Shown piece by piece: positions 7,349 to 32,513 of a stretch of 32,575 nucleotides of DNA. Numbering within the stretch: position 1 is the stretch's first letter; the number at the start of each line of letters is the position of its first letter. Location: the NCBI GenBank assembly GCA_022564515.1, contig JADFLH010000014.1, forward strand, positions 1 through 32,575. The letters are read 5' to 3'. This stretch comes from Nitrososphaerota archaeon. Its GTDB lineage: Archaea; Thermoproteota; Nitrososphaeria; Nitrososphaerales; Nitrosopumilaceae. The notes under the pieces are model-generated. The model was not told where the DNA came from. It saw only the letters and a list, made by a program, of their open reading frames with translations, and ran no database searches. The position numbers and the translations under genes are program-made.

Positions 7349-10300
7349 ATGAAATCTGAGATACTATTAGCAATTTTTGCATTTCTTCTATTGGGAACTA
7401 TTCCTTTCTCAGCAATAGGCCAATCAGGCTCTATTGCAGACCATGTTGTAATTAATGAAGTTGATACCAATCCTCCTGGCTCTGATTATGAGAAAATATC
7501 AGAATGGGTAGAGCTATACAATCCTACAGATGAAGAAATACACGTTGGTGGTTGGAAGATAGCTTCAACAACGGTTTTGAAGAAAACTCTTATCATACCA
7601 GAGGGCACAACAATTAAACCACAACAATTTTTGAAATTTCAATACCAAAGTGTTTGGTTTACTGATGTTGGTGAACGTGTAGAATTACGTGATGATGCTG
7701 GAATTGTAATTGATGCAACACCAAATATTACTGATTTAAATAATGATTTCCTTTCATGGCAACGAGTATACGATGGTTTTGATACTAATTCATTTGATGA
7801 TTGGAAATTTGAGACATCCACCGCAGGATCTACTAATGGAAAATTAGTTATTGAAGAAGAAGAAGAAAGAGTTTCAGTAACTGTTATTGTAGACAAGCCA
7901 AATTATCTTTTTGATGAAACTGCAACAATTAGTGGAACGGTGTCAAAACAAATTTTCGTCGAAATTCCATTTTTCTACCAAGAAACAGTTGATGTAGTTG
8001 TATCTGGACCAAATTATTACAAAAAACTTACACTGTATCCTAACTTGAATCTCGAATTCGAAACTTCGTTAAAATTACAAAAATTACTTGGAATCAATGA
8101 GGGAGTTTATAATGTAAGGGTAGATTATGCAGGAACAACTACTGAAACGCAATTTTCCGTTGGAGAAGAAATAATTAAAATTGAACAAAAAGAAGCAGAT
8201 ATACTCAAAATCACAACAGATAAGGAATTTTATATTCCTGGTGAAACTGCCACAATTTTTGGAGAAACTTCTAAAATAATAGAGTTTGAAGGACTAACAT
8301 TTAAAGTGATTAATCCTAATGGAATTAAAATCTATCAAGGAACTTTATTTCCAAATATTGGCAGCGTTAATTTTGCTGTAAGAGGTGGGGAGCTAAACGC
8401 AAATCCAGATGCACAGTTTTCCACCAATATATTTTTGAATACTATTTCCCCCAGTTTTGGAACCCATACAATAATCGCTCAATATGGAGCACAAACAGCA
8501 ACTGGAACTTTCGTTCTTAATGAAGATGTTAAAGAGGAAAAGCCGATTTCGTTAAGAACTGATAAACCAGCATATGGGTTAGGAGAAACAGTTGTAATCT
8601 CTGGTAGATTAAACAATTTGTTCATTGATTCTATGGACCTTGAAATTCTTCAGGTTGGTACTGATCTCTCAACGGATCCACTAGGTAGAGGTTCTTTGGA
8701 CCAAAACACGATTGGAGTTCTAAAGATATTGGATGTAGTAAGATTAGAAGGAGATAGTTCATTTAGTTACGAATTTACTATTCCCAATGGACCTGATAGA
8801 TTTGGTGATTACAGAGTAACTGTTTCCAAAGAAGTTGGTTCAGAAACAATCTTCTTCAAGGTGGTAGAAAACCCAGAAGAGTTTGTCGATATTTCAGTTC
8901 CGTTTTCCATCTTCACTAATAAATTAATTTACGACATAGGTGAAAGAATGGTTATTTTTGGAAAGGTTGCCAACCTCCAATCGAGATCCAGCTTTGAAAC
9001 TCTTGTTGTTTCTATCTTTATAACCGATGAAGATGACAATCCTCTAACAATCCTTGCATTGTTAGAAGGTTCAAAGGCACAGAGTAGAATAACTGACAAT
9101 GCTGTTGCTTGCTATACCCTGACAGGAATTCCTGATATTGCAGGAAACTTTAGGGTTGAGCAATCTATATCCCCTTCATTGTACAAGCAAGGAACCTACC
9201 ATCTTAAAGCAATCTATTCTGACGCAAAACAAGGCATATGGGCTACAGAAGTTTCGGGCTGTCCTAATTTTGATCAAGTTAGATCTGATGTTAAGGCAAC
9301 TACATCTTTTTCAGTGATAGACCCTCTAAAGATTGAGGGACAATTTCTTGTTCAATTAAACAAGGAAGTTTTTGGTTTAGGCGAGACGGTTTTACTTGAT
9401 GGAATAATTCCAAATATTTCCCAAGGGAGTGGAATATCGATCACATTGATAAAGCCAGATGGGGATACGGACAAATTTGGCACTTTGGCAGATAATTCAA
9501 AATTCTCTTGGAGCTGGGAAACACCACGTGCTGAAAAAGTAAGTGCGGTTACAAATGAAAGAGTTGTTACTTCAAGCAACTATGGAATTTATCAAATAGC
9601 AATAGGAACAGATTCTATTAGTACAAACATTTTCTTTAAAGTTTCACCAAATCCCGAAGAGGATACACTTGAAATTGCTCCCTTGCAAGTTACAACTGAT
9701 AAGGCAATTTACAACGCAGGCGAAACTCTAACTGTTCTGGGAACCGCGATGAAAAGACCTCAGGGAATGGAAGGACTGGTAGTACAAGATAGGGCACAAA
9801 TCATTGTTAGTTCCACAGGCTTTCCAATCAAACAAATCTATGAGGCCTTTGTCTATTTGGATAATGGAGGCAATTTCAAAAGTACCTTTGACCTACCTGT
9901 AACAATTTTCAAGGATGGCAACTACAAAGCAACTGCAATTTATCAAAAATTGAGGGCTGAATCTTTGTTTGCAATAAATAATGAGTTTGTCTTTGGTGGC
10001 GATATGCCTCTAATCCTATTATTGGATACTGACAAAGATGAATACCAATTAGGTGAAACAGTTCAAATTTCTGGCAGACCGAGTAAGATAGTATATCTAG
10101 AAAATATACATATCAATGTTGTTCATGAGGATGAATTGCAATTAACATGTGGATCCTTCATTTGCGGACGACCTGGCACATCCTTATCAGTAACTCCATC
10201 GCCTTCAGGAACATTTTCCAATGAATACACAATTCCCATTTCAAGTGATGCCATTGGAAAGTATGAAGTAATTGCAGATACTGAATTTGGATTATATTCT

Positions 10301-10774
10301 ACTTCATTTTCTGTAATTTCCAAACCTGTTCAAGTGGGAAAAAGAATGACTGAGAAATTTAATAGAATTTCTGATTCTTTTGTACCAATTTCTGTAGCTG
10401 AAAAAACTTTTGATGATAAGGTATTGCTTCCAAGAGTACTTCAAGGCTCACTTATCACTTCAACACGTGGTGAAGAGGCCAATGTAAATATCAAAATCAC
10501 CACACAGGATGGCATTTGCATTATTGGCCAAGAAGCTGAATGTCTTATCAAGGATTTAACTCGTAGTCCTGGAACAATTTATCAAGTTGTTGAGATAGAT
10601 GGCTTTAACTACAAAATTCGCTACAGCGGACCCAATGCTAAGTTAGAAAAATTCACAATCTTGCCAGAATCATCAATTGTACCCTTGCCTGATTCTACAT
10701 GGAATCTAGAAGTAATCAAAGATGAACAACCTTCTAGATTATACTATAGGATAACATACATCACTTCAGAGTAA
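7349..10774 (+). CDS. giant secreted surface protein: lamin-tail domain plus seven Ig-like repeats
   Basis: A 1141-residue exported protein. Residues 1-25 form a signal peptide ending near AIGQSG. A lamin-tail-like domain follows at about 30-165 (HVVINEVDTNPPG, EWVELYNPTDEEI, VELRDDAGIVIDA). Seven tandem beta domains then start near residues 176, 285, 399, 518, 665, 779 and 889, each opening with a version of TDKxxYxxGETvxIsG. Examples are TDKPAYGLGETVVISG and TDKDEYQLGETVQISG. This resembles Ig-like/macroglobulin-type surface modules. No C-terminal membrane helix or sorting signal is seen. A GTGAGG ribosome-binding sequence lies a few bases before the ATG. It is probably part of the cell envelope; adhesion or S-layer association is inference. 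Confidence 0.85.
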   Translation: MKSEILLAIFAFLLLGTIPFSAIGQSGSIADHVVINEVDTNPPGSDYEKISEWVELYNPTDEEIHVGGWKIASTTVLKKTLIIPEGTTIKPQQFLKFQYQSVWFTDVGERVELRDDAGIVIDATPNITDLNNDFLSWQRVYDGFDTNSFDDWKFETSTAGSTNGKLVIEEEEERVSVTVIVDKPNYLFDETATISGTVSKQIFVEIPFFYQETVDVVVSGPNYYKKLTLYPNLNLEFETSLKLQKLLGINEGVYNVRVDYAGTTTETQFSVGEEIIKIEQKEADILKITTDKEFYIPGETATIFGETSKIIEFEGLTFKVINPNGIKIYQGTLFPNIGSVNFAVRGGELNANPDAQFSTNIFLNTISPSFGTHTIIAQYGAQTATGTFVLNEDVKEEKPISLRTDKPAYGLGETVVISGRLNNLFIDSMDLEILQVGTDLSTDPLGRGSLDQNTIGVLKILDVVRLEGDSSFSYEFTIPNGPDRFGDYRVTVSKEVGSETIFFKVVENPEEFVDISVPFSIFTNKLIYDIGERMVIFGKVANLQSRSSFETLVVSIFITDEDDNPLTILALLEGSKAQSRITDNAVACYTLTGIPDIAGNFRVEQSISPSLYKQGTYHLKAIYSDAKQGIWATEVSGCPNFDQVRSDVKATTSFSVIDPLKIEGQFLVQLNKEVFGLGETVLLDGIIPNISQGSGISITLIKPDGDTDKFGTLADNSKFSWSWETPRAEKVSAVTNERVVTSSNYGIYQIAIGTDSISTNIFFKVSPNPEEDTLEIAPLQVTTDKAIYNAGETLTVLGTAMKRPQGMEGLVVQDRAQIIVSSTGFPIKQIYEAFVYLDNGGNFKSTFDLPVTIFKDGNYKATAIYQKLRAESLFAINNEFVFGGDMPLILLLDTDKDEYQLGETVQISGRPSKIVYLENIHINVVHEDELQLTCGSFICGRPGTSLSVTPSPSGTFSNEYTIPISSDAIGKYEVIADTEFGLYSTSFSVISKPVQVGKRMTEKFNRISDSFVPISVAEKTFDDKVLLPRVLQGSLITSTRGEEANVNIKITTQDGICIIGQEAECLIKDLTRSPGTIYQVVEIDGFNYKIRYSGPNAKLEKFTILPESSIVPLPDSTWNLEVIKDEQPSRLYYRITYITSE

Positions 10775-15716: not shown

Positions 15717-16037
15717 TCAGGGCCCGGCTACGCCTACGCCATCCTCAAGTTCTATGGAAAAGTGCTTCCCCTCATCCATCATTGTTGCTTCTTTTTCTAA
15801 TTTCCAATCTTTACCTTCTAATTTTTTAACAGAAACTTCTTTTACACAAGCTGCATCGCCAGAGGGACGAATCATTAATGCTAATCCAGATTTACAAACA
15901 ACATCTTCAGCAGTTATACCGTCTTCCATTTGTTGTCTAGGAGATATTATCATATGATGATCAGCAAGAGAAATTGGGACGAGTCCAATTGAAAGAATTA
16001 GAGGAATTAATACAAAAGTTGTAAAGTTATGTACCAT
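15717..16037 (-). CDS. secreted protein with EDVVC domain (106 aa)
   Basis: A signal peptide (1-25, ending ISLADHH) precedes a short mature protein. Its core, QMEDGITAEDVVCKSGLALM followed by IRPSGDAACV, shares at least fifteen positions with the N-terminal domain of the hydrolase at 28112-29257. The two Cys residues are about 18 apart and could form a disulfide or bind metal. The tail is acidic and Lys-rich. I recall this motif as frequent in thaumarchaeal exported proteins, but its role is unknown to me. On the minus strand an ATTAAATAT box lies about 26 bases before the ATG, so the mRNA is probably leaderless. It converges with tfb. Confidence 0.75.
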   Translation of the reverse strand: MVHNFTTFVLIPLILSIGLVPISLADHHMIISPRQQMEDGITAEDVVCKSGLALMIRPSGDAACVKEVSVKKLEGKDWKLEKEATMMDEGKHFSIELEDGVGVAGP

Positions 16038-24642: not shown

Positions 24643-24747
24643 ATGTAATATCTGCCTGATTTCTTGATAATCTGATTCGTATTTTTGTATCTTCTGGATG
24701 ATTACTGCCAAATCCTTAAGTACAATTCTAAGAATTTTTTGATCCCT

Positions 24748-27741
24748 GTGAAAAAACCATTCATTGTCGCATTATTTTCCCTAATCCTATTGATGCCTGC
24801 TCTTGGTAATGCACAAAACTCGGATAGAATTTCACTTTTGGATAATTTTGGCTCTTTTGACAAGGGAGAAAGTCTTTTTATCTTTGGAAGTCTTGCAATG
24901 GTGCTTCCTGACGCATTCTTAATTTTGCAAATCATTAATCCCAACGGAGATCTTTGTCAGATTCAACAATTAACCCCCTTACCCAACGGCTTGTTTGTTA
25001 CAGAATCAATACCTCTAAAAGGCAAGGTTTGTGGCAAAAGCGGTGAATATGAAATAAAAATCTTTTATGGTGATTATTTTAAACAATCATCTTTTACAGT
25101 TTCTTCCTCAATTTACCAAGAACCTGATGGTTCAAAATATTTTGATTTGGCTACTAATTTAGTTTCTGAAAAAATCAATTCAGTTCAAGAAAAAACAAAT
25201 GCAAGCTTGGAAGAATTTACGGCTAAATTAGAAACTTTGAATTCTACTCCTTCCACTAACACCATAAATGAATTGGAAGAACTTTATGTTGACTTGTGGA
25301 GTTCGTTTTTTGTTGAAGAGGATCTTTTTGAACTTGATCCAGCATTTAGGCCACCTATTACATCTTTCTTAGACTCTACTTCTGAATTGATTGAAAACGG
25401 AAAAATCTCTTTTGATGTTGCAAAGGCTATTGATGAGGAAATATTTTCATCTGTTTTCTATTATGAAATTGGTAACACCAATACTGCTATCCATAAATTA
25501 AACGACGTTTTTGTGTCTATAAAGAATGTTAATCCCATTAAAATTGAAACAAAACACACTCTTACATTTCAAGAATTAGAAGACCTTCTTCTAAATTTGA
25601 TGACAAAGAATTTTTCTCTAATGAATAGAAACGTCAAAGAAGAAATTGCTTTTATCTTTGCCCGTGGGACTGGTCCAATTTACTCTGCTGAATTAAATGA
25701 GCTAGTAGATCTTCTTTCTAAATCAAGATATCTTGATGTCATTACAAGAAAACAAAGCCCGCTTTTCAAACTTGTTCAAATAGAGTGGGAATCGACCAAA
25801 TCCTCTCTGACAAAAAAAGACTCGATTGAAGAATTAGTGGAACCAATAGACAAGGTTTCAAAACTTCATCAGGCAGCCTTGCTTCTCAGGGAACTTGAAA
25901 ATGTTGACCGATTCATTACATCTGATAAGAAAAGTAACTCTGAGCTTGCAAATCTCATTATGCCTGAATGGAAAAATCTGGCCTCTAGTTTAGAACAGGC
26001 AACATCTGTAGACAATATTTTGGATTCTGAGATAGAAATCAAAAACATGAAAAATGTAATTGATGCTTCGTCAAGAATATCTAAAGCAGTTGAAATTTCT
26101 CAAAAAAGTAATATTGGTTCTTACTTGATTGATGGATGGGAATCACTTCTAGTCAAAGTAGAAAACGCAAACTCTGTAAATGAAATCTTGGAAATCGTTT
26201 CGGAATTTGATAAATCCATTAACGAAATGAGAGAAAAACGAAGCCCAATATCGATTTTAAAATTTGAATATGAAACAATGAAACATAAAGCCGAAATTCA
26301 AGCTGATCAAAAAAATCTATTTCTCATAAACAATGCTTTGAAAATTCTAGATACTGCTAAAAAAATGGCAGATGGCAATCCTACTGTTAGTAGAATTGAT
26401 AGAATTGAAGTATTGTTAACTTGGGCTAGTGAAATAGCTCCTGAAATTAAACAAGATTTGAATTCATATTCAAAAGATGCATTCAAAGTTAGGGCTAGTG
26501 ACATTTTACAACGAGCTAAATCAATTGAAAACTTGGCTGATCTAAGCTTACGTAAGAACAGATTCCTACCCGGATATATTGACTATATTGATTCAATGAA
26601 AGAAAGAATTAACGTTGCAAGAGATCTCGTAATAAGAAATGATCTTGATTCTGCAGACAATATGGTACGTGATTTATTTTCAGAATGGCGTCAAGTCTCA
26701 AATGCATATGTAGATGATCCATTTGGTTCTGATGTTGGTTATAATGCAGATGAACTTAAAAGAATTGAATATCGAAAACAACTTGATTATCTTTCTGAAA
26801 CTGTTTCCAATTTCTATAATGCTGATTTTGCTCAATATTCCGATGAATTTGTAAAGATGACTAATGATGCATATGAGCTAATTGATTATAGTAACTTTAT
26901 AGATGCAGAATCAAAGCTCAGCGAAATTCGCCAATATCTGAGTGAATATCTTCCACTGAATAATGCCAATATTTTCTATGATATCAGATATGACCAGGAA
27001 AAAGACATTTGGATAATTGACGGTGCTGTAAACAAACCTGATGGTTTAAGGAAAAAAGACAGGAGGCAAAATTTGTATTTGACAATTAATGATGGAGCGG
27101 GCGAAATTCACAGCACACTAAAATTTACAGATAACAGAGATGGTGAATTTTTTACACAGTGGCAAGCACCAACTAAACCTGGATTGTATGTCGTAACTTT
27201 GCAATTTATGAATTATAAAGCCTCCCAAATTGTTAACATTGAAGAGAAAATTGAAAGGAGCTATTCTGATATAGAACTTGATAGTGTGGAACTCGCAAGA
27301 GAATTTGAGGAGCTTGAAGTATTCATTGAAAAATTTGGCGGCGAAAAATACAAAGGCAATTCAAAATTTGAATCCATTATTAACGAAATTAAAATTGGCC
27401 TAGCTGATAGAGATTCTGAAACTGTCAAGAAAAACCTTCAAGAACTTAGGAAATTCATTGAACGACATCTGCCAATAAGATCAAAATATGCTGTCATTAA
27501 AGCCGAATACTCTGATGACAAGTTGATAATTTCAGGCCAAGTGTACAAACAACTTTCCTTCAGAGAAGACCTGTTTGTAGATATTTTTGACCAAAAAGGA
27601 AATCACATAGAAGAAATTGCCTTTGATGATCAGGGCGGGCGCTTTAATGAGGTTTTGTCCATTCCCCTTACTCGTGGGACCTATGTTGCACAGTTAGAAT
27701 TCCATGATCTTATTGTTACTGATTTTTTTACAGTACTTTAG
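24748..27741 (+). CDS. giant secreted protein with Ig-like domains and long helical region
   Basis: From the GTG at 24748 the protein is 997 aa and begins with a clear signal peptide (VKKPFIVALFSLILLMPALG, cleavage near NAQN). The frame is open further upstream to 24685, but that would put 21 polar residues before the signal. Residues about 28-105 form an Ig-like domain (FDKGESLFIFGS). A helix-rich region of about 600 residues follows (about 110-690). Then come two helix-plus-Ig modules: helical to about 740 with Ig 741-834 (with start at 24748, about 720-813), then helical with a final Ig ending at the C-terminus. The domain order suggests a long filamentous surface protein. There is no TM at the end. 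Confidence 0.82.
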   Translation: MKKPFIVALFSLILLMPALGNAQNSDRISLLDNFGSFDKGESLFIFGSLAMVLPDAFLILQIINPNGDLCQIQQLTPLPNGLFVTESIPLKGKVCGKSGEYEIKIFYGDYFKQSSFTVSSSIYQEPDGSKYFDLATNLVSEKINSVQEKTNASLEEFTAKLETLNSTPSTNTINELEELYVDLWSSFFVEEDLFELDPAFRPPITSFLDSTSELIENGKISFDVAKAIDEEIFSSVFYYEIGNTNTAIHKLNDVFVSIKNVNPIKIETKHTLTFQELEDLLLNLMTKNFSLMNRNVKEEIAFIFARGTGPIYSAELNELVDLLSKSRYLDVITRKQSPLFKLVQIEWESTKSSLTKKDSIEELVEPIDKVSKLHQAALLLRELENVDRFITSDKKSNSELANLIMPEWKNLASSLEQATSVDNILDSEIEIKNMKNVIDASSRISKAVEISQKSNIGSYLIDGWESLLVKVENANSVNEILEIVSEFDKSINEMREKRSPISILKFEYETMKHKAEIQADQKNLFLINNALKILDTAKKMADGNPTVSRIDRIEVLLTWASEIAPEIKQDLNSYSKDAFKVRASDILQRAKSIENLADLSLRKNRFLPGYIDYIDSMKERINVARDLVIRNDLDSADNMVRDLFSEWRQVSNAYVDDPFGSDVGYNADELKRIEYRKQLDYLSETVSNFYNADFAQYSDEFVKMTNDAYELIDYSNFIDAESKLSEIRQYLSEYLPLNNANIFYDIRYDQEKDIWIIDGAVNKPDGLRKKDRRQNLYLTINDGAGEIHSTLKFTDNRDGEFFTQWQAPTKPGLYVVTLQFMNYKASQIVNIEEKIERSYSDIELDSVELAREFEELEVFIEKFGGEKYKGNSKFESIINEIKIGLADRDSETVKKNLQELRKFIERHLPIRSKYAVIKAEYSDDKLIISGQVYKQLSFREDLFVDIFDQKGNHIEEIAFDDQGGRFNEVLSIPLTRGTYVAQLEFHDLIVTDFFTVL

Positions 27742-28086: not shown

Positions 28087-28111
28087 ATCTCCGATCTAAT
28101 GTATCTTGGGC

Positions 28112-29257
28112 ATGAGACTAAAACAATTATCCTTCAAGAATTATCTGGTACCTTTCTCTTTCATTCTTCTAATTCTATCAATTGGAATTATACCGACTTT
28201 ATCATTTGGTGGCCTCATAGATTTTCCATTAAAACAGATGAAAGCTGGTGTAGCACCAGAAGATGTGGTATGTAGATTTGGACTAACTATGATGATTCGT
28301 GATACAGGAGCAGCAGCATGCGTTTTTCCAACATCAGAGGACAGATTAGTTGATGTTGGATGGACAGTGATTGCTGAAGGTCTTCCAATGATTAAAGAAA
28401 TGGTGGAAGAAAAAACAATAGAAATTGATGGACTTACTATTTCCTACAAAGAAGGAGGCTCACCAGATTCCCCAACTATACTTTTGCTGCATGGTTTTCC
28501 TACATCATCATACATGTTTCGAAATCTAATTCCAGCTCTTGAAAACGAGTTTCACCTAATTGCGCCAGACTATATAGGTTATGGAAAAAGCTCCATGCCT
28601 TCAGTTGATGAATTTGAATATACATTTGATAATCAAGCAGATATTGTAGACAAGCTCACTGAGAAACTAGGTCTTTCAGAGTACAGCATATATGTTATGG
28701 ATTATGGTGCACCAGTTGGATTTCGACTTTTCGACAAACACCCTGAAAGAATTCAAGCAATTATAGTACAAAACGGTAATGCCTATGAAGAAGGACTAGA
28801 AGAATTCTGGGATGATTGGAAAGTATGGTGGAATGATAAAACAGATGAAAACGAGAAAAAACTGCACTACCTTGTGGCTCCAGACACAACAAAATGGCAG
28901 TACACTTTTGGAATGAGTAATCCAAATTCAATTGATCCATCCACTTGGATTACTGATCAAGCAGGATTAGACAGACCTGGTAACGTAGCAATTCAGCTTG
29001 CAATGGCCTATGACTACAGAACTAACCTTTCATTATATCCTCAATGGCAAGAACAATTCAGAGAGCATCAACCGCCCATGTTAATTGTGTGGGGCGCAAA
29101 CGACTATATCTTTCCCGAAGCAGGTGCTCATCCATACGAACGCGACTTGAATGATGTTGAAAAACATATTCTTGATACAGGTCACTTCGCCCTAGAAGAC
29201 CACCTTGATTTTATAGCTGAAAAAATTTCCAACTTTTTGAATTCAAGATTGCAATAA
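28112..29257 (+). CDS. exported alpha/beta hydrolase fused to an EDVVC domain
   Basis: A 381-residue protein with three parts. A signal/anchor sequence comes first (about 10-32). A short domain follows with QMKAGVAPEDVVCRFG and TGAAACVFP, shared with the secreted protein at 15717-16037. Then comes an alpha/beta hydrolase (about 100-381). It has an HGFP oxyanion motif (LLLHGFPTSSYMFR), a nucleophile elbow VMDYGAP with Asp near 197, an acid Asp near 331 (WGANDYIFP) and His near 358 (DTGHFALEDH). An Asp nucleophile is the mark of haloalkane dehalogenases and epoxide hydrolases, not Ser esterases. The substrate is unknown. Located on the cell surface or outside, by its signal. Confidence 0.87.
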   Translation: MRLKQLSFKNYLVPFSFILLILSIGIIPTLSFGGLIDFPLKQMKAGVAPEDVVCRFGLTMMIRDTGAAACVFPTSEDRLVDVGWTVIAEGLPMIKEMVEEKTIEIDGLTISYKEGGSPDSPTILLLHGFPTSSYMFRNLIPALENEFHLIAPDYIGYGKSSMPSVDEFEYTFDNQADIVDKLTEKLGLSEYSIYVMDYGAPVGFRLFDKHPERIQAIIVQNGNAYEEGLEEFWDDWKVWWNDKTDENEKKLHYLVAPDTTKWQYTFGMSNPNSIDPSTWITDQAGLDRPGNVAIQLAMAYDYRTNLSLYPQWQEQFREHQPPMLIVWGANDYIFPEAGAHPYERDLNDVEKHILDTGHFALEDHLDFIAEKISNFLNSRLQ

Positions 29258-31186: not shown

Positions 31187-31252
31187 GCATACTTGTTTAT
31201 ATGTGTCCAATTAACCACAATCTTTAAGTATGCTAAGTATGCTAAGAATACC
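31187..31252 (+). promoter_or_regulatory. integrase promoter flanked by AAGTATGC boxes
   Basis: An inverted box GCATACTT (31187-31194) lies just upstream of a TATA box TTTATATG (31196-31203). Downstream are two direct copies of AAGTATGC (31226-31233 and 31235-31242) in 9-base steps, with a degenerate third (AAGAATAC, 31244-31251). The direct copies overlap the integrase start region. A regulator or the integrase itself could bind here. Confidence 0.45.
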
Positions 31253-32513
31253 AATGATGGAACAAAAAAACATACAAAAAATAGTGCAGGGTAGCTTAGA
31301 AGCACAATTCTTAGATGAGAAATATCTTAGAACTAGGAGTGCTACAGGGCGAAAAACCAATCATAGCGCCATGAATAAATTCAAAATCTTTCTTAGAATT
31401 GAAAAAAACCTTGAAGAAAACAGGGAATTAGAACAGGTAAAATTTTTGCTTGTAGAAAGAAAAAATCTAGATCCTTTGGTTTTGTTAAAAGAGTATTACA
31501 AATACTTACGAAACTGTACGACTTCAAAAGGCAAACCACTAAGAAATGGGCCAGTTAGAACCTACATAATTATAGCAAAAGAGATTCTTCGATTCTTAGG
31601 CTGTAAGATATACAATGAGGACTTTAAGCAAGCTATTAGATTACCACCAAAACAAGATACAGCAGAAGAAGAAATTGAAAAGGAAGAATTAAGAATCCTT
31701 CTAAGAAATTCGCCTTTAGACCTTCAAGCTGTAATACTTGAAATTTTATCGGGAGGAATGAGAATAGAAGAATTAGTCCAGATAACACTAGATGATATTG
31801 ATTTTACCACAAACCCGATAACAATCAGTCTAAGAGAAGAAATCGTTAAAGGAAAAATAAAACCTAGAAAAACTCAGATTACTGGTGAAGCTGGTAACAT
31901 CTTAAAGGAATACCTGACAAAAGAATTTAGCTGGCCTAATTGGACAAAGCCAAACAAGTTTATTTTCATGCGAACGCATCAAGAAAGAATACAAATCTAT
32001 GAACGAATGATAAAAGATGAGAAAGTAAAACTAGTTCGAAGAAACAGCATAAAAAATCAAACATTACCCAAAATAAAAGACCATCTCAAAAATCTAAACG
32101 AACAACAGCTTTATGATAAGTGCGTTGAAAATGCAAAAAACAATCTTGAGCATAAGCTAGAGAGGGTTGTTGATAGCATCCCAACACTTTCGGGCAGACT
32201 TAACAACAACGTAAGAAAAATACACTTTCACGCATTAAGAGCCTGGTTTAAGACTACTATTTCTGATCAAGGTTACAGTAATTTTGGTGAAGCTTTAGAG
32301 GGCAGGGAAAGCGTAGAGTTAAGATATTACAGAAAAAACGACAAGAAAAGGAGAGCTTTGTATCTTAAGGTTGAAACAGCTTTAACAATCTCAGATTATT
32401 CGAGCATTGAAAAAAACATAACAAAAACTACGGAAGATTATAACGAGTTAAAAGAACAGTTCAATGATCTAAAAGAAAAATTTGAGAAATACGTACTAGC
32501 TAAAAACTCCTAA
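31230..32513 (+). CDS. tyrosine recombinase (integrase), archaeal
   Basis: A 427-residue site-specific recombinase. An N-terminal SAM-like DNA-binding domain (about 10-135) precedes the catalytic domain: Arg178 in LSGGMRIEELVQIT, a beta-hairpin Lys region (KPRKTQI), His334 and Arg337 in HFHALRAW, and Tyr366/Tyr367 in ELRYYRKND. The usual second His of the GH motif is replaced (LEGRES). A long insert (about 250-325) separates the Arg and the HxxR boxes. The C-terminus ends in a predicted coiled coil (IEKNITKTTEDYNELKEQF). Starts at 31230, 31239, 31254 or 31257 are possible; 31230 fits a leaderless mRNA from the TATA at 31196. Confidence 0.88.
   Translation: MLSMLRIPMMEQKNIQKIVQGSLEAQFLDEKYLRTRSATGRKTNHSAMNKFKIFLRIEKNLEENRELEQVKFLLVERKNLDPLVLLKEYYKYLRNCTTSKGKPLRNGPVRTYIIIAKEILRFLGCKIYNEDFKQAIRLPPKQDTAEEEIEKEELRILLRNSPLDLQAVILEILSGGMRIEELVQITLDDIDFTTNPITISLREEIVKGKIKPRKTQITGEAGNILKEYLTKEFSWPNWTKPNKFIFMRTHQERIQIYERMIKDEKVKLVRRNSIKNQTLPKIKDHLKNLNEQQLYDKCVENAKNNLEHKLERVVDSIPTLSGRLNNNVRKIHFHALRAWFKTTISDQGYSNFGEALEGRESVELRYYRKNDKKRRALYLKVETALTISDYSSIEKNITKTTEDYNELKEQFNDLKEKFEKYVLAKNS

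Follow-up and report, generated by a model that had tools for sequence, protein, structure and literature searches.

WING-49, a catalogued domain of ammonia-oxidising archaea, on a putative exported alpha/beta-hydrolase and its possible role in the cell envelope

By what means archaea that have an S-layer and no rigid wall prevent their soluble exported proteins from drifting away is largely an open question. One possible surface-holding route in ammonia-oxidising archaea (AOA) is offered by PEF-type C-terminal tails, which we take to be those of the PEFG-CTERM surface sorting of thaumarchaea. The gene considered here joins a small two-cysteine domain to an enzyme whose best PDB sequence matches are the haloalkane dehalogenases (DhaA, LinB and kin; E = 5e-25 in a single-sequence search and 7e-31 in a profile search). 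In haloalkane dehalogenases the Trp beside the nucleophile and the Asn of the HGNP motif stabilise or bind the halide, while in epoxide hydrolases two lid tyrosines activate the epoxide. The small domain is not new, as it is already catalogued as NCBIfam NF058652, "WING-49"; the description of that model gives no function, and a literature search found no published account of the domain.

The fusion gene and the WING-49 domain

The window, i.e., the whole stretch of 32,575 nucleotides that was analyzed, carries two genes encoding WING-49. Their features are as follows.

28112 to 29257, plus strand: gene for a putative exported fusion of WING-49 and an alpha/beta-hydrolase, 381 aa with ATG 28112 as start
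28112 to 28210, plus strand: signal-peptide-like leader, Lys/Arg followed by a hydrophobic core (translation and hydrophobicity heuristic)
28226 to 28366, plus strand: WING-49 domain, residues 41-87 numbered from 28106 (NCBIfam match)
28271 to 28273, plus strand: first invariant Cys, C56 in EDVVC (family alignment)
28319 to 28321, plus strand: second invariant Cys, C72 in AACV (family alignment)
28418 to 29254, plus strand: alpha/beta-hydrolase domain, about residues 105-383 (Pfam match, PDB and homologue alignments)
28700 to 28702, plus strand: putative nucleophile D199 in YVMDYGAP, aligned with the Asp of haloalkane dehalogenase, invariant in 6/6
29102 to 29104, plus strand: putative acid D333 in WGANDYIF, past strand 7, invariant in 6/6
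29183 to 29185, plus strand: putative base H360 in DTGHFALE, aligned with the dehalogenase His, invariant in 6/6
15717 to 16037, minus strand: gene for a small putative exported protein of 106 aa (leader, WING-49 and acidic tail; open ORF)
15804 to 15941, minus strand: WING-49 domain of the 106-aa protein, residues 33-78 (NCBIfam match)

An alternative in-frame start (TTG at 28106) gives an ORF of 383 aa (28106-29257) that is also open in translation. A first-pass annotation, made from the sequence alone, had claimed that these two genes share one short domain with a Cys pair, and this was confirmed: both proteins match NF058652.1 above its curated cut-off of 22 bits (58.9 bits, E = 4e-16 for the fusion; 59.6 bits, E = 2.3e-16 for the 106-aa protein), and the two domains are 45% identical in a search of their own genome (E = 1.4e-9). 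Both copies contain the two Cys, with the fusion-borne copy ending in GW and the copy of the small protein in DW. No Pfam family scored above its cut-off in the WING-49 stretch of either window protein; the remainder of the fusion protein matches Abhydrolase_1 (117.3 bits against a gathering cut-off of 25.8; E = 1.2e-33).

The domain set used for further analyses was drawn from 154 loci, in which 134 domain hits were found in 134 ORFs representing 123 distinct proteins, each with a single copy of WING-49 and never two. Alignment A3 held 110 of 118 distinct domain stretches and the two window copies, and alignment A6 held 37 of 38 further proteins, with one fragment omitted. The consensus of the 49-residue domain is SPLKQ-F/I/M-xxG-I/V-xxx-D/E-V/I-x-C-xxGLxLxxK-xxx-SPACVKPxTxxKL-I/V-xRGW. 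The first Cys is present in 122/122 domains in which that column is filled and the second in 123/123; a Pro (115/119), a Gln (118/119), a Gly (110/120) and a Trp (101/119) are also conserved. The resemblance noticed in the window thus survives alignment of 123 true homologues. As for the conserved core that had been proposed from the two copies, the Cys are invariant family-wide, whereas the EDVVC string is peculiar to these two copies, the family consensus at that place being [DE][VI]xC.

AlphaFold2, given 112 sequences, predicts the order helix, two strands, helix and short strand (mean pLDDT 86.5; pTM 0.67). A search of the PDB with this model returned no confident match (best Foldseek E = 1.7; best VIA-align Z = 2.9, rmsd 2.1, 38 aligned), a result that does not show a new fold. 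As both Cys are invariant and the proteins are exported, the two Cys probably form a disulfide that closes the mini-domain.

Distribution, architecture and partners of WING-49

In a survey of 400 genomes of the class, WING-49 was matched at E <= 0.01 in 181 genomes (180 above cut-off), with 174 of these 181 in the family of the window (f1), six in family f3 and a single one in f5; the 14 control genomes gave no match at E <= 0.01. A draw of 300 genomes from the phylum yielded 41 with a match at E <= 0.001, all in f1. The number of copies per genome holding the domain ranges from one to more than 20. The window's own genome has six copies above cut-off, and the four that lie outside the window include one on a serpin and one on a DM13 protein (assigned by eye). 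Among the best 80 of 141 confirmed stretches in a named collection (79 loci), all hosts but one are thaumarchaeal by name, including Nitrosotalea, Nitrosopumilus, Nitrosarchaeum and Nitrosotenuis, along with one Nitrososphaeraceae. WING-49 is a module of AOA, of the family Nitrosopumilaceae going by named relatives. Searched viral contigs contained neither the domain nor the hydrolase.

The remaining host in the named collection is an "Alphaproteobacteria" MAG (OFTM68). Because the genes next to this copy look by eye like the F420 genes cofC and cofD, we did not accept it as a bacterial WING-49; it is probably a misbinned archaeal contig.

The domain starts no more than 75 residues from the N-terminus in 50 of the 123 proteins (N-terminal), ends no more than 25 residues from the C-terminus in 33 (C-terminal) and lies in the middle in 40. 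By a simple rule, 115/123 proteins have a signal-like hydrophobic N-terminus, and four of the eight exceptions are cut by a contig end. Small proteins such as the one at 15717-16037 are rare (5/123 are shorter than 140 aa, and these include truncated sequences and ones whose start is doubtful).

Partner domains were tallied in 85 proteins taken from 98 matches in ten closed genomes, the remaining matches being weak or partial (unfetched or below our own HMM) or duplicates; the NCBIfam model confirmed WING-49 in 85/85. The Pfam partners were Kazal (6), MG2 (4), metallo-beta-lactamase (4), DLH (3), DUF4377 (3) and cupredoxin (2), with single cases including peptidylarginine deiminase and ANF_receptor with HATPase. 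A further 37 proteins added Abhydrolase_1 (7), DLH (6) and one each of serpin, GSDH, ice-binding and DM13; families of one fold may match the same protein. The survey, the partner tallies and the floating position bear out the earlier suggestion of a thaumarchaeal, export-related module attached to unrelated proteins, and occurrences beyond the window run to the hundreds. The joining of an Asp-nucleophile hydrolase to WING-49 adds one architecture to its known range, and the window domains are no different from the family.

Three AOA fusions with dienelactone hydrolase (L015, L033 and L037) have the same order as the window protein, i.e., leader, WING-49 and alpha/beta-hydrolase, but their enzyme belongs to a separate hydrolase family (Pfam DLH); hydrolases have therefore been joined to WING-49 at least twice. 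A literature search found no paper on an exported dienelactone hydrolase of AOA.

One sensor-kinase-like protein (L146:2620-5097) combines an N-terminal WING-49 with an ANF-receptor domain, one TM segment, a very long PEPTPEPE repeat and HATPase, a layout whose predicted topology places WING-49 on the outside of the cell.

The hydrolase and the origin of the fusion

The first-pass annotation had called the enzyme an Asp-nucleophile hydrolase of dehalogenase or epoxide-hydrolase type. The first part of this assignment held up, as D199 and H360 align with the nucleophile Asp and the catalytic His of haloalkane dehalogenase, and D333 is presumably the acid, by analogy with DhlA and epoxide hydrolases. 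The name dehalogenase did not: the enzyme differs from haloalkane dehalogenases at the halide positions (HGFP for HGNP and DYG for DWG), and it scores below the cut-offs of NF002938 (119.5 against 241) and NF002873 (76.5 against 466). By these sequence criteria it is not a haloalkane dehalogenase.

Bacterial hydrolases of the HGFPTSS/DYGAP/QNGNAY type share the putative catalytic residues of the window enzyme, for example a Fischerella plasmid protein (BAZ70922.1; 61.7% identity) and an Agrobacterium pAt protein (WP_112361532.1; 51.3%). Identity is about 62-64% for relatives on cyanobacterial plasmids and 51-53% for those on rhizobial ones. The two rhizobial homologues examined have signal-like leaders of their own, and no bacterial homologue examined carries WING-49.

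Hydrolase homologues were found in 22 of the 400 class genomes. WING-49 is fused to the hydrolase in six f1 genomes, namely that of the window, G396, G161, G327, G372 (truncated where its contig stops) and G063 (with a frameshift dividing the gene). In three other genomes the hydrolase has a different exported N-terminus bearing a CGDVLC motif (G219, of f1), is stop-bearing and without WING-49 (G205) or is present as a fragment only (G341). The copies in 13 f3 genomes have no WING-49, with the N-terminal part visible in 11 of the 13 (all but L060 and L063), and in these 11 no signal-like segment was found by the rule used. A tree of 19 rows places the six fused hydrolases in a single group (100/99) that adjoins a bare f3 copy, G183 (86/89), with G219 outside. 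Among the sequences seen, the fusion therefore has one origin, in a family of bare enzymes that soil archaea and bacteria also have.

Between the window and G396 the two parts of the fusion differ in divergence. The hydrolases are 95% identical at the amino acid level (dN 0.02, dS 0.28; NG86), as compared to 57% for the WING-49 domains (dN 0.39, dS 0.45; a rough NG86 estimate from 51 codons), which gives dN/dS of about 0.07 and 0.9, respectively. In this pair constraint is thus far weaker on WING-49 than on the enzyme.

Stops or a frameshift interrupt the hydrolase gene in L049 (G205) and L047/L069 (G063); it seems that the enzyme is dispensable in those relatives or that these are assembly errors.

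Membrane anchors, charge and the possible function of WING-49

By a single hydrophobicity rule, among the 117 complete WING-49 proteins (the six of the 123 that are cut by a contig end being left out), 112 have a leader and no other TM segment, one has a C-terminal TM segment, two have inner TM segments and two lack a leader. For genomes G042 and G040, a C-terminal TM segment was present in 1/32 WING-49 proteins as compared to 45/156 other exported proteins (P = 0.0012, Fisher's exact test), in a comparison that uses a hydrophobicity rule and crude gene calling, sets aside multi-TM proteins and includes proteins of the same family, which are not independent. When the 40 evenly spaced stretches alone were considered, the numbers were 0/8 and 45/156 (P = 0.11). 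PEF-type tails were present on 19 of the same 156 other exported proteins; the one complete WING-49 protein with a C-terminal TM segment (L077) has a PEF-like tail.

Net charge was compared in the 107 of 123 proteins that are complete and long enough. The mean per 50 residues is +1.1 for WING-49 and -3.2 for the remainder of the same proteins, with WING-49 being the more positive part in 104/107. In the window fusion, WING-49 has a net charge of -2 and the hydrolase part one of -28 over 296 residues, so that this copy is less negative than its enzyme without being basic. The S-layer of N. maritimus is described as a negatively charged cation trap (PMC11153153).

The scarcity of anchors and the charge contrast are compatible with a retention module taking the place of a membrane anchor, and our preferred, still tentative reading is that WING-49 is a disulfide-stabilised envelope-docking module, in which we infer the docking, its target and the substrate of the hydrolase alike. 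In this sense of envelope retention, the targeting role suggested by the first-pass annotation may hold. The gene at 28112-29257 would then encode an exported Asp-nucleophile alpha/beta-hydrolase with one WING-49, and AOA of the Nitrosopumilaceae would graft this domain onto many soluble exported proteins, so that proteins without an anchor would be held non-covalently in the cell envelope. In the simplest form, a relatively basic surface of WING-49 would dock on the acidic S-layer lattice, and the retained enzyme would act at the surface of the cell or within the pseudo-periplasm rather than diffusing off. Counted in favour of docking are the identity of the domain, the leaders, the single copy, the floating position, the Cys pair, the range of partners, the few C-terminal anchors, the charge contrast, the outer position of the domain in the sensor-kinase-like protein and the negative charge of the N. 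maritimus S-layer. Several observations weigh against it. The net charge of -2 makes simple electrostatic docking weak for the hydrolase-borne copy; the sensor-kinase-like protein, with a TM segment of its own, would not need WING-49 for retention; conservation of a small fold could by itself produce the charge contrast; and the absence of a TM anchor, together with the charge contrast, fits free secretion as well, the former equally so. Moreover, as the domains of the window and G396 are 57% identical and their hydrolases 95%, strong sequence-specific binding is not indicated there.

The main alternative, doubtful in our view and still to be taken seriously, is that WING-49 serves freely secreted proteins in a structural or stabilising way, as a disulfide mini-domain that acts as spacer, folding nucleus or protease shield and binds no ligand specifically. 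Such a role agrees with the single copy, the floating position, the lack of anchors, the fast divergence of the domain within the hydrolase fusion and the absence of a confident PDB fold match. It accounts less well for the conservation of the Pro, Gln, Gly and Trp positions, which exceeds what a scaffold needs, and a spacer would not be expected to retain a polar Gln almost invariantly or to have been joined to so many partners inside a single archaeal family. That the domain joins exported proteins to one another, or to a dedicated membrane receptor rather than the S-layer, is unlikely; the functionally mixed partners and the one copy per protein would suit a plug-and-socket scheme, and a copy number that varies from one to more than 20 among genomes having WING-49 speaks against it. 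A role in processing or secretion, whether as propeptide or as sorting tag, which is another sense in which the first-pass annotation's targeting role might be taken, is very improbable: the N-terminal place soon after the leader in 50/123 would agree with it, but the domain is found in the middle or at the C-terminus of the other proteins, and its compact predicted fold is unlike short sorting tags. The metal-binding or redox unit that had also been suggested is the least credible reading, since the two invariant Cys form no CxxC, no invariant His, Asp or Glu offers a third or fourth ligand, and in exported proteins a disulfide is the plain interpretation of such a pair.

If the docking reading is extended from this protein to the family, WING-49 would be a general envelope-retention module of Nitrosopumilaceae, through which exported enzymes, protease inhibitors and sensors would dock on the S-layer by the tens and make up the pseudo-periplasmic proteome of AOA; we regard this extension as somewhat unlikely as it stands. 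Under it, WING-49 would play in these archaea the part that cell-wall-binding domains play in bacteria. A small domain that abundant ammonia oxidisers carry on exported proteins, more than 20 of them in some genomes, offers a concrete way into the question of protein retention; for the window itself the significance is modest, as the domain had been catalogued before and the hydrolase that bears it is of bacterial type.

A second two-cysteine motif, VCGD[RKV]LC, follows the leader in five exported AOA proteins (L050 of G219, L032, L041, L015 and L126); in G219 a motif of this type takes the place of WING-49 ahead of the same hydrolase. Elsewhere in the window, the plus strand encodes a 1141-aa protein with lamin-tail and MG2 domains (7349-10774), a 1018-aa protein that has a signal-like leader and matches no Pfam or NCBIfam family above cut-off (24685-27741) and, close to the contig end, a protein of the phage-integrase family (31230-32513).
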